From the NCBI GenBank assembly GCA_944341445.1, contig CALVLZ010000010.1:1-64000 (forward strand): DNA of 64,000 nt, read 5' to 3'. Below, one piece after another: positions 45,578-49,984 of this stretch. The position numbers were made by a program, and so were the translations under genes. Under the pieces are notes generated by a model. That model searched no databases and had not been told where the DNA came from. It saw only the letters and a program-made list of their open reading frames with translations. Source of the DNA: an uncultured Clostridia bacterium. GTDB taxonomy: Bacteria > Bacillota > Clostridia > Christensenellales > UBA1242. Numbering within the stretch: the first letter of the stretch is position 1; each line of letters starts with the position of its first letter.

Positions 45578-46621
45578 TTGATTACACAGGGTATGTTACT
45601 TAGTTTTATATCAACAGTTAAGCAATTTGGTTTCATATTGCTTGCTGTTTTTATTTTGTTATTAATGGTAACTATTCACGAATTAGGTCATTACACAGCA
45701 GGCAAACTTTTAAAATTTAAAATTAATGAGTTTTCTGTTGGTTTTGGAAAGGTTCTTTTTCAAAAAAAGAAAAAATCTGGAGAGTTGGTTTCTTTAAGAT
45801 TAATTCCGCTTGGCGGATATTGTGCTTTTGATGGGGAAGAAGATGTTAAAGATGAAAGTTCTTTTAACTCTCAAAAACCTTGGAAAAGAATTATTGTTTT
45901 ATTATCTGGTGTTCTGTTTAACTTTATTTCTGCAATAATTTTTAGCATATTTTTGCTTGGAATTATTGGTAACGGAACACAAATTGTAACCGCAACAAAC
46001 GAAAATCAAACAGTTTTGCAAGCAAACGATATTATTGTTAGTGTTAACGGTGAAAAACCTTCTTATTTTAACGGCGGAATTGCAGGAATAACAAGCGATA
46101 TTAAAGATAAAATTAATATTAACGTTGTTGTTTTAAGAGATGGCAAACAAGAAGAGTTGATGGTTCAAAAATATGCAGTGCTAGAAATGGGCGAAACCAC
46201 ATATAAACTAGGAATATCAACAGGCTTAGTTAAAATGAGTTGGGGAGAAGCAATTTTGCAAGCAACTCCGTTCACTTTTGAAATGGCAGGAGAATGCTTT
46301 AAAATTTTTGGTGAGTTAATAACAGGAAAGATATCGCTAAGTCAGTTAGGTGGGCCAATTGCAACAATTAGCACAATTGCAACAAACACAAGTGCTAATA
46401 TTTTAAATTTATTGTTGTTGCTACCACTAATAGCGGTAAACTTGGCAGTGTTTAACATTTTGCCAATTCCAGCACTAGATGGCGCAAGAATTGTTTTTGT
46501 GTTAATAGAGTGGATTCGAGGCAAAGCAATTAACAGAGAATTAGAAGCAAAAATTCACGCAATTGGTTTGATGCTGCTATTTGCTTTTGTTATTTTGGTT
46601 GATTTTATGTTTATTTTTTAA
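45578..46621 (+). CDS. rseP: Site-2 intramembrane metalloprotease RseP/RasP
   Basis: This protease cleaves anti-sigma factors and signal-peptide remnants in the membrane. It starts with TTG 45578 after AAGGAG. The 347 residues have the zinc motif HELGH within TIHELGHYTAGKL near residue 36, a PDZ domain (about 140-210), and the third-ligand motif FNILPIPALDGARI. Four hydrophobic segments are visible. Upstream dxr and downstream proS/ispG of other Firmicutes are missing. Confidence 0.95.
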   Translation: MITQGMLLSFISTVKQFGFILLAVFILLLMVTIHELGHYTAGKLLKFKINEFSVGFGKVLFQKKKKSGELVSLRLIPLGGYCAFDGEEDVKDESSFNSQKPWKRIIVLLSGVLFNFISAIIFSIFLLGIIGNGTQIVTATNENQTVLQANDIIVSVNGEKPSYFNGGIAGITSDIKDKININVVVLRDGKQEELMVQKYAVLEMGETTYKLGISTGLVKMSWGEAILQATPFTFEMAGECFKIFGELITGKISLSQLGGPIATISTIATNTSANILNLLLLLPLIAVNLAVFNILPIPALDGARIVFVLIEWIRGKAINRELEAKIHAIGLMLLFAFVILVDFMFIF

Positions 46622-46636
46622 TAAAGTGGTGAACTG

Positions 46637-48217
46637 ATGACAAAATTATTAGAATTTATAAATAACAAATCTAACAACAAATTTAAAAATTATAAGTTAA
46701 CTTATGCTTGTTATAACAAAACAAATAAAGAATTGAACCTTAAGTTTGTTTATGATGATGAGTTAATAAACAAAGAAGATAAACAGTTGTTGTTTGATTT
46801 AATAAAAGAATATTTGAATTTAAATATTAATATCAACATTAAATGCAAAAAAAGTTTTGTTGATGTTGATGTTATAAAAAATGTGCTTTATGAGTATTTA
46901 ACAAAAAATTATGAAAACATAATAACTAATTTTTCAATAAATAACATAAATGTAAAAATAGAAGAAAATAATGTTTTTGTTGCAATAAAATTATTAGAAG
47001 TTTTTTATAATCATTTGCAACAAATTGGTTTTAAAGATGAAATAAAAAAATTTTTAGAAATGAATTTTTTTGCAAATATTGATGTTGAATTGGTTAAAGA
47101 AGAATCTGAAACAAACTTAGAAGAAAGTATTTTATTTCAAGCAGACATTATGGATGATTATGTTTATTCTGAAGAAAAAGAAGAGCAAACATTTGAAGTA
47201 ACAAATAAAGAAGTTTTTGTTGGTTCAGAAATATTAGAAAACCCAACTATAATAGCAGATATTAATGGAGAAAAGAAAGGTTTTGTTATTGCTGGAACAA
47301 TAAAATATTTAACTAAAAAAACTTTTGAAAGAAAGAAAAAAGATAGTGAAGAAGTTGTTGAAAAAGAGTTTTATAAATTTGTTTTAAACGACACAACAGG
47401 TGAAATTTCAGCGGTATATTTTCCGCTAAAAGCAGACTTAGAAAAAGTTGAAAATTTAAAAGATGGAATTAACGTTGTTGTTAAGGGCGACATTGAAAAG
47501 TATATGGATGCGTTTAACATAAAAGTTAAAGATATTTCTTTTTGTGAACTTCCAAAAGAAATTGTTAAAGAAGAAGTTATACAAAATATCGTTTATGATA
47601 AATATAGATATGTTCAACCAACACAATATGTTGGCTTAAAACAAGAAAATTTATTCCAAAAAGAAAATGAACAAATTCCACAATTTTTAATTGATAACAC
47701 TTGCGTTGTTTTCGACTTGGAAACAACAGGTTTGGATGCTCAAAATTGTGAAATCATTGAAATTGGTGCAGCAAAAATTGAAAATGGCGCAATAACTCAA
47801 CAATTTTGTTGTTTTGTTAAGCCAACAACTGCAATCCCTCAGGAAATAACAGAATTAACAGGTATAACTGATGATATGGTTAAAGATGCAGAACCTATTA
47901 AAAATTTAATACCAGATTTTTATAAGTTTTGTGAAAATTGTGTGATAATTGCTCATAATTTAGATTTTGATTATAAGTTTTTGTATATGGCTGGTAAAAA
48001 GGCTGGGTATGATTTTAACAACGCAAGGTTGGATACTTTGGCTTTGGCAAGAAGTGCAGTTAAAGGCTTAAAGAATTATAAGTTAAAAACGTTAGCAAAC
48101 CATTTTAATGTTTCATTAGAAAATGCTCACAGAGCGGTTCACGATGCAACAGCAACTGCAGAAGTTTTTATTAAAATGGCAGGTTCTGTTACAGATTCGT
48201 TTGTTCAGAAAAATTAA
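46637..48217 (+). CDS. PolC-derived protein: N-terminal, OB and exonuclease domains only
   Basis: The 526-residue product sits where full-length PolC (about 1,440 residues) normally lies, 15 bases after rseP. Residues 1-190 resemble the PolC N-terminal domain in position and style; about 213-302 form an OB fold (GFVIAGTIKYL, FVLNDTTGEISAVYF, VVVKGDIEKYMDAFNIKV). Residues 353-520 are a DnaQ-type 3'-5' exonuclease with all acidic motifs: D360/E362 in FDLETTG, D445 in AHNLDFD, and H498/D503 in AHRAVHD. The PHP region that brackets the exonuclease in PolC and the whole polymerase core are missing, and the stop is followed by the rimP promoter. It could serve as a separate proofreading subunit, or have become a general exonuclease; function is unproven. 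Confidence 0.85.
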   Translation: MTKLLEFINNKSNNKFKNYKLTYACYNKTNKELNLKFVYDDELINKEDKQLLFDLIKEYLNLNININIKCKKSFVDVDVIKNVLYEYLTKNYENIITNFSINNINVKIEENNVFVAIKLLEVFYNHLQQIGFKDEIKKFLEMNFFANIDVELVKEESETNLEESILFQADIMDDYVYSEEKEEQTFEVTNKEVFVGSEILENPTIIADINGEKKGFVIAGTIKYLTKKTFERKKKDSEEVVEKEFYKFVLNDTTGEISAVYFPLKADLEKVENLKDGINVVVKGDIEKYMDAFNIKVKDISFCELPKEIVKEEVIQNIVYDKYRYVQPTQYVGLKQENLFQKENEQIPQFLIDNTCVVFDLETTGLDAQNCEIIEIGAAKIENGAITQQFCCFVKPTTAIPQEITELTGITDDMVKDAEPIKNLIPDFYKFCENCVIIAHNLDFDYKFLYMAGKKAGYDFNNARLDTLALARSAVKGLKNYKLKTLANHFNVSLENAHRAVHDATATAEVFIKMAGSVTDSFVQKN

Positions 48218-48265: not shown

Positions 48266-48294
48266 TTGAAATGTTAAAATAATTATGCTATAAT
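48266..48294 (+). promoter_or_regulatory. Promoter of the rimP-nusA-infB operon
   Basis: TTGAAA and TATAAT are spaced by 17 bases with a TGC extension. The element TATGCTA occurs three times nearby (48241, 48285 and 48312), once covering the -10. Confidence 0.87.
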
Positions 48295-48318: not shown

Positions 48319-48345
48319 AAGAGTGGAACTTGAGTTTCCACTCTT
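48319..48345 (+). promoter_or_regulatory. Leader hairpin upstream of rimP
   Basis: AAGAGTGGAA pairs with TTCCACTCTT around CTTGAGT, followed by TTGGTTTT. The stem is strong but the T-run is interrupted, and a ribosome binding site follows 10 bases later. It could be an attenuator controlled by NusA, whose gene is in this operon; similar hairpins precede rimP in many clostridia. Confidence 0.6.
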
Positions 48346-48364: not shown

Positions 48365-48847
48365 ATGGCAAACAAAAGAATTGTTGATGTTGTGTTTGAA
48401 TGTGCTAAGCCAATTGTTAATGGTTTTGGGTTTGAACTAGTTGATGTTGAATACGTTAAAAAGCCAAACGGAATGAATTTAACAATTTATGTTGATAACC
48501 CAAACGGGGTTGTTAACCTAGAAGATTGTGAAAAAATTTCGCATGCGTTAGATGAACCACTAGATATTTTGGACCCAACCAAAGGAGAGTTCTATTATTT
48601 TAACGTTTCATCAATGGGCTTAGATAGGCCAATAACAACTGAATATCAATTTAATAAATATAAAGGTTCTGAAATTGAAATTAAGATGTATGAACCATTA
48701 AAGCCATATAACAAAAAACAACTTATTGGTAAGTTGGTTAGTTGGGATGAAAATTCAGTAACAATTGAAAGCAATTTAGAAAAAGATTTGCTTATTTCAA
48801 TTCCTAAAAAAGCAATTGCACAAATAGTGCCGGTTATAAAATTTTAA
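48365..48847 (+). CDS. rimP: Ribosome maturation factor RimP
   Basis: RimP assists 30S assembly. The 160 residues have the family pattern: GFELVDVEYVKKPNGMNLTIYVDNP, DCEKISHALDEPLD, and YYFNVSSMGLDRPI, followed by an SH3-like C-terminal domain. AAGGAGGAGG precedes the ATG closely. First gene of the classical rimP-nusA-ylxR-ylxQ-infB operon. Confidence 0.96.
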   Translation: MANKRIVDVVFECAKPIVNGFGFELVDVEYVKKPNGMNLTIYVDNPNGVVNLEDCEKISHALDEPLDILDPTKGEFYYFNVSSMGLDRPITTEYQFNKYKGSEIEIKMYEPLKPYNKKQLIGKLVSWDENSVTIESNLEKDLLISIPKKAIAQIVPVIKF

Positions 48848-48865
48848 ACAAAGAGGATATATAAA

Positions 48866-49984
48866 ATGATTAATAAGGATTTTTTTAAAGCATTAGAAGA
48901 TTTAGAAACTTTAAAAGGAATTAACAAAGAATATTTTTTAGACGCATTAGAAGCTGGTTTAACAAGCGCATATAAAAAGAATTTTGGAGAAGGCAAAAGT
49001 GCTTTCGTTAAATTAAATCCAGAAAAAAATAGCATTAAAGTTTATTCTTATAAAACTGTTGTGGAAGAAGTTGAAGACCCAGACAAACAAATTTCTTTAA
49101 AAGATGCAAAATTAATTAAGAAAAGTTATAAATTAGGGGATGAAGTTCAACAAGAAGAAACTCCTAAAAACTTTGGTAGAATTGCTGCTCAAACTGCAAA
49201 ACAAGTTGTTATGCAACGTTTGCACGAAGCAGAACGCAAAAAAATTATTGATGAAGTTAGCGCTAAAGAAAATGAACTTTTAACTGTTATTGTTAGAAGA
49301 GTTGAAGGCGATAATGTTTATGTTGATATGGGTATAACACAAGTTGAAGGTGTGCTATCTAAAAAAGACCAAATTCCTGGTGAAAGATATCAAATAAATT
49401 CTAGAATTAAAGTTTATGTTAAATCTGTTAAAGAATCTTATAATATGCCATACGTTCAATTAACAAGAGCAAATGCTGGATTTGTTAAAAAATTGTTTGA
49501 ATTGGAAGTTCCAGAAATTCAAAGCGGAGAAGTTGAAATTAAAAGCATAGTTCGTGAAGCAGGATACAGAACAAAGATGGCTGTTTATTCTCCAAACCCA
49601 AATTTGGATGCAATTGGTGCTTGTGTTGGTAATCGTGGAATGCGTGTTAACACAATTGTTAACGAATTAAATGGCGAAAAAATTGATATTATTCCTTGGA
49701 GCGAAAACCCTGTTGAATATATAACTGCAGCATTAAGTCCATCTCCTGTGTTACATGTTGATGTTAATATGTTAGATAAAACTTCATTGGCTGTTGTTCC
49801 AGATGAAAAATTATCTTTGGCAATTGGTAAAAATGGTCAAAATGTAAGACTTGCTGTTAAGTTAACAAATTGGAAAATAGATGTTAAACCAAAGTCTGCA
49901 GTTCCAACATTAAACATTGCAGAAAGCGAACCAAACTACGAAGATTTGTTTGAAAACGAAAATGCTTTTGATGATATTGAATAG
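48866..49984 (+). CDS. nusA: Transcription factor NusA
   Basis: NusA controls pausing, termination and antitermination. The 372-residue protein has an N-terminal RNAP-binding domain (1-125), an S1 domain (VEGDNVYVDMGITQVEGVL), and two KH domains (GACVGNRGMRVNTIVNEL and LAIGKNGQNVRLAVKLT). It lacks the acidic repeats of enterobacterial NusA, as is normal in Firmicutes. GAGG precedes the ATG. Confidence 0.97.
   Translation: MINKDFFKALEDLETLKGINKEYFLDALEAGLTSAYKKNFGEGKSAFVKLNPEKNSIKVYSYKTVVEEVEDPDKQISLKDAKLIKKSYKLGDEVQQEETPKNFGRIAAQTAKQVVMQRLHEAERKKIIDEVSAKENELLTVIVRRVEGDNVYVDMGITQVEGVLSKKDQIPGERYQINSRIKVYVKSVKESYNMPYVQLTRANAGFVKKLFELEVPEIQSGEVEIKSIVREAGYRTKMAVYSPNPNLDAIGACVGNRGMRVNTIVNELNGEKIDIIPWSENPVEYITAALSPSPVLHVDVNMLDKTSLAVVPDEKLSLAIGKNGQNVRLAVKLTNWKIDVKPKSAVPTLNIAESEPNYEDLFENENAFDDIE

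Follow-up and report, generated by a model that had tools for sequence, protein, structure and literature searches.

A PolC stripped of its polymerase in one clade of Christensenellales, probably a clamp-tethered proofreader for DnaE

The polC gene of an uncultured Clostridia bacterium of the order Christensenellales (UBA1242; GenBank assembly GCA_944341445.1) is reduced to a coding sequence of 526 amino acids comprising an N-terminal double KH-like region, an OB fold, a linker with a putative clamp motif and a DEDDh exonuclease. From sequence comparison we infer both binding and activity of this reduced PolC, which has probably become a clamp-tethered, detached proofreader for DnaE. The gene occupies positions 46637-48217 (forward strand) of the window, by which we mean the whole stretch of 64,000 nucleotides analyzed (contig CALVLZ010000010.1, positions 1 to 64,000), as an intact open reading frame with exactly these bounds and an ATG start. 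It is preceded by rseP (45578-46621, forward strand), a conserved upstream neighbor of the polC slot, and followed by the conserved downstream neighbors rimP and nusA (48365-49984, forward strand, with starts at 48365 and 48866) and then by ylxR and infB. The order rseP-[gene]-rimP-nusA is that of the polC slot, which by location places the gene among the descendants of polC. The three genes rseP, rimP and nusA adjoin reduced polC in most short-form loci with sufficient flanking sequence, and full PolC is also followed by rimP and nusA at several loci of PolC-positive Christensenellales where the flank reaches that far. We note that a strong promoter-like site (11/12; 48266-48294) and a terminator-like hairpin (48319-48345) lie between reduced polC and rimP, upstream of the latter, suggestive of a promoter of its own for rimP-nusA with a leader hairpin; an Rfam search of the window returned no match.

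The descent of the protein from PolC is apparent in each of its parts. The exonuclease domain (residues about 350-526; 47684-48214, forward strand) is recognized by Pfam as RNase_T (6e-38, residues 357-511) and has D360, E362, D445, H498 and D503 all present. Among curated relatives, the PolC exonuclease scores best (NF001688, 5e-58, PolC positions 418-590); the model for proteobacterial DnaQ (TIGR01406 dnaQ_proteo) yields 93 bits, short of its cut-off of 223, the PolC model scoring higher. The protein stops after the exonuclease and has no Pol3 core, TIGR01405 reaching 165 bits where its cut-off is 1043. Pfam gave a weak tRNA_anti-codon match (2.5e-5, below cut-off) on the OB fold (residues about 191-310; 47207-47566, forward strand) and nothing in the N-terminal region (46637-47107, forward strand). 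When a profile of 52-53 short forms was aligned with hhalign to one built from 11 full-length Christensenellales PolC proteins, a single collinear match ran from residue 17 to 518 (E 9.6e-72), and the N-terminal and OB parts aligned alone also matched full PolC, with E 9.6e-7 and 3.9e-14, respectively. The interval between OB fold and exonuclease in full PolC holds about 70-90 residues that bear the PHP motifs HxHT, TDH and GxE; in the alignment of the two profiles, the short form showed no PHP-N motif before the exonuclease and no PHP-C motif after it.

A structure model of the 526-residue protein (mean pLDDT 79; 87.7 for the N-terminal part alone, modeled with AF2) comprises two KH-like subdomains, an OB fold and an exonuclease. 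The first subdomain (residues 1-74) resembles the type-II KH domain of EngA (Z about 8) and the second (residues 76-157) the type-II KH domains of ribosomal protein S3 and Era (Z 8-9), both resemblances being modest and model-based. In agreement with this, a published prediction cited in PMC3919608 assigns to the N-terminal domain of PolC a pair of KH-like domains related to domain V of tau. Upon structural comparison, the modeled OB-exonuclease part (residues 192-526) matches the solved PolC structure 9qpc, with DinG and epsilon (Z about 22 for the latter) among the nearest structures. Judged by its sequence, the window protein is a descendant of PolC, neither a PolC enzyme nor a member of the epsilon lineage, that most likely works like epsilon. 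An earlier note made from the window alone had described a gene of 526 residues in the polC slot after rseP, with an OB fold and a complete DnaQ-type exonuclease kept and the PHP domain and whole polymerase gone; the frame coordinates and neighboring genes confirm the position and size, the RNase_T match, catalytic set and hhalign results confirm what was kept, and the alignment with the 11 full PolC proteins confirms what was lost.

The short form and full PolC exclude one another. An even sample of 297 Christensenellales genomes, in which short forms were scored at E below 1e-80 over full length, contained 144 genomes with the short form, 98 with full PolC and none with both; the remaining 55 had neither at the thresholds used and include lineages with a degenerate exonuclease as well as incomplete genomes. 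The same holds at the family level, where 14 families have the short form and 17 full PolC, with no overlap. Full-length short-form matches in a sample of the class (391 genomes, E 1e-70) were found only within Christensenellales, the other matches being exonucleases inside long PolC frames of 986-1535 residues, and a sample of the phylum (398 genomes, 1e-80) revealed no short form besides the window's own. In a DnaE tree (56 proteins, rooted on other Clostridia), all 32 short-form genomes formed one clade (SH-aLRT 100), and the passage from PolC to the short form needs one change of state, with family f17 scored as short-form in view of the divergent and catalytically dead copy at its locus. 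As reconstructed from these sequences, polC lost its PHP halves and polymerase in the ancestor of one Christensenellales clade. The long DnaE stem branch (0.36) below this clade could be taken to reflect adaptation; this idea was rejected, some single-family stems being equal or longer.

The distribution and the tree further show that DnaE became the only replicase once the PolC polymerase was lost. The sole C-family polymerase of the window genome is DnaE (C9:59908-63087); a PolC polymerase encoded as a fragment at another locus was rejected, the remaining listed matches to the PolC model being DnaE, and the genome search proposed in the earlier note found no full-length PolC elsewhere and DnaE present. 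The PHP metal site of DnaE (HHDHEHCDH) is complete in the window genome and in 50/50 DnaE proteins examined, making intrinsic proofreading by DnaE possible, and the DnaE of the window genome carries an internal clamp motif, GQISMF. No further DnaQ-type (RNase_T) exonuclease was found in the window genome, which rules out a replacement DnaQ there, or in six same-family relatives. In another genome (G012, 96% complete) the short form is present and DnaE was not found, probably owing to a missing contig. The DnaE1 enzymes that coexist with PolC in Clostridia have a conserved putative epsilon-binding surface (PMC3919608), and the exonuclease of PolC in B. subtilis is believed to act in trans to correct the errors of DnaE (PMC11890065).

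The linker between the OB fold and the exonuclease contains a putative beta-clamp-binding pentapeptide, QENLF (residues 336-340; 47642-47656, forward strand). Of 50 relatives, 46 fit the pattern Q-x-x-[LMIVF]-[FL] and 49 keep Q336; in 2000 trials with each linker shuffled, 3.0 relatives fitted the pattern on average and never more than 10. Inside an otherwise variable linker, the QxxLF motif is as conserved as the catalytic residues; residues 336-344 are predicted with low confidence in the structure model and were read as flexible. Some relatives display the textbook forms QLSLF or QFSLF, the experimentally established clamp-binding consensus being QL[S/D]LF, or more broadly QxxLF, and a clamp motif is likewise found in epsilon of E. 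coli (QTSMAF; PMC12309361). None of the full PolC proteins of Christensenellales (n=11) has a clamp motif at the corresponding OB-exonuclease position; nine of them have a C-terminal Q-x-x-[LI]-F motif (e.g., QVSLF, QISLF) and the other two no C-terminal clamp motif in the open frames examined. Most simply read, the clamp contact shifted as the polymerase disappeared. Upstream of the motif, Y323 (47603-47605) and P328 (47618-47620) form a Y-x4-P arrangement kept in >90% of relatives and may be part of a longer contact or binding segment. The clamp motif, the intact DnaE PHP site and the lineages without a working exonuclease described below are additions beyond the earlier note.

Even with two thirds of the gene gone and a few lineages having later lost the exonuclease, it is hardly credible that reduced polC is a pseudogene in decay or a product of misassembly. 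The gene is present in all 35 same-family genomes of a first sample, in most of them at full length and 30-42% identity, the exceptions being three with the N-terminal/OB part alone and one cut by a contig end. At this level of identity the frame remains open and collinear in the sampled family and the catalytic residues are retained, and domain order and length are kept in all sampled family members bar the three devoid of exonuclease, as well as in 13 further families. Within genera, protein identity is 60-84% while synonymous sites are saturated; with saturation in nearly all pairs, dN/dS was measurable over the whole gene for a single pair (L176/L177), where it is 0.09. These observations show that reduced PolC is retained under selection, and family-wide conservation together with a locus shared by independent assemblies rules out decay or an assembly gap. 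The earlier note had likewise argued for a selected protein over decay, a view upheld here by the conservation, the catalytic residues and the dN/dS value. Its proposed search for orthologues of the same length succeeded in 14 families, and the assembly deletion that it had named as a possible refutation is contradicted by dozens of independent assemblies that have this architecture at this locus.

The catalytic set is complete in 48 of 50 relatives, and several lineages depart from the common pattern. Three proteins of the same family end directly after the OB fold (L101 in G014, L102 in G006 and L103 in G003; 312, 338 and 214 residues, respectively). Their three genomes form one DnaE clade, and genome searches of G006 and G014 found no RNase_T exonuclease at all. 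Members of family f20 at L117 (G053), L185 (G167) and L186 (G154) have kept their length and lost the catalytic residues; other members of this family, in G204 and G216, give a full-length profile match, with an RNase_T score of 2e-35 in G204. The f17 copy is catalytically dead (loci listed for f20 and f17: L117, L185, L186 and L116 in G050). This destruction of the active site in f20 and f17 is a fate separate from outright loss of the exonuclease. In family f6 (L176-L181, g106; L115, G039), the exonuclease is intact and the QxxLF motif missing. In all, at least three lineages have a missing or inactivated exonuclease next to persisting N-terminal/OB parts, indicating that proofreading is neither the only nor always an essential function of the protein. 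A second, structural role is probable for the N-terminal/OB part, and proofreading by reduced PolC is presumably dispensable in some lineages, where the DnaE PHP site would suffice.

A mechanism can be proposed for reduced PolC. The QxxLF motif would tether it to the sliding clamp next to DnaE, single-stranded DNA would be held by the OB fold and, in line with what has been proposed for PolC, the N-terminal KH-like region would touch the clamp loader or replisome, with the exonuclease trimming mismatched 3' ends left by DnaE. Reduced PolC would then be an epsilon-like subunit continuing the in-trans proofreading attributed to PolC in B. subtilis. The case for such a detached proofreader is strengthened by the fact that the clamp motif adjoins the exonuclease, that DnaE is the sole replicase and that no other DnaQ-type exonuclease is present. 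An alternative to which we attach a clearly lower probability gives the protein a mainly structural part in the replisome: its KH-like region and OB fold, formerly the front of PolC, would still connect the clamp loader with the clamp and DNA, and the exonuclease would be optional because DnaE proofreads with its own PHP domain. The PHP metal site intact in 50/50 DnaE proteins, the persistence of the N-terminal/OB parts where the exonuclease was lost or inactivated, and the two genomes (G006, G014) devoid of any RNase_T would all be accommodated by this alternative, which is at odds with the full catalytic set of 48/50 relatives and with the finding that the residues of the exonuclease and clamp motif are the most conserved and the N-terminal part the most variable. 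Less probable still is a clamp-associated exonuclease of repair or primer processing (e.g., 3'-end trimming) not acting on the growing end made by DnaE. Clamp motifs are common among repair proteins, DEDDh domains take many substrates and DinG stands alongside epsilon among the closest structural matches; yet in sequence the domain is nearest the proofreading domain of PolC itself, and both the locus and the mutual exclusion with full PolC tie the protein to PolC and the replicase.

Surveys name three bacterial Pol III layouts, namely DnaE1 only, PolC with DnaE1, and PolC with DnaE3 (PMC3919608, PMC12926913). No description of a polymerase-less PolC was found in the open-access literature searched, in keeping with the statement of the earlier note that it knew of no account of such a layout. 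On balance, we favor the existence of a fourth replicase layout, in which DnaE1 alone is accompanied by a clamp-tethered proofreader stripped out of PolC, fixed once in Christensenellales with the clamp contact rewired from the C-terminus to the OB-exonuclease linker. The clade displays an exit route from the two-polymerase state, one where the normally essential replicase was lost and its proofreader retained. As a natural experiment, it also bears on which PolC parts are needed in the absence of the polymerase, on in-trans proofreading and on the PolC-DnaE1 system of Clostridia, and leads to the prediction that the target of PolC-polymerase inhibitors is absent from these gut bacteria.

Among known systems, the PolC of Bacillota shares with the reduced form its locus and, in the same order, the double KH-like region, OB fold and DEDDh exonuclease (E 1e-71), and differs from it in having PHP halves, a Pol3 core, an HhH region and a C-terminal clamp motif, in place of which the reduced form has QxxLF between OB fold and exonuclease. 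E. coli DnaQ/epsilon is likewise a stand-alone DEDDh exonuclease with an intact active site, working in a DnaE-only system and having a clamp motif, putative in the reduced form, beside the exonuclease. Unlike epsilon, the reduced form is PolC-derived, carries additional KH-like and OB domains and has its motif before the exonuclease, where that of epsilon comes after. Domain loss from PolC in Clostridia is also known from the PolC proteins without the exonuclease insertion found in some Clostridia and Negativicutes (PMC3919608); these variants, however, represent the opposite loss, the polymerase having been kept and the exonuclease being gone. The exonuclease-DnaE1 fusion of Bacteroidetes (PMC3919608) is another way of giving DnaE1 a DnaQ-type proofreader, in this case one covalently fused to DnaE and of independent origin.
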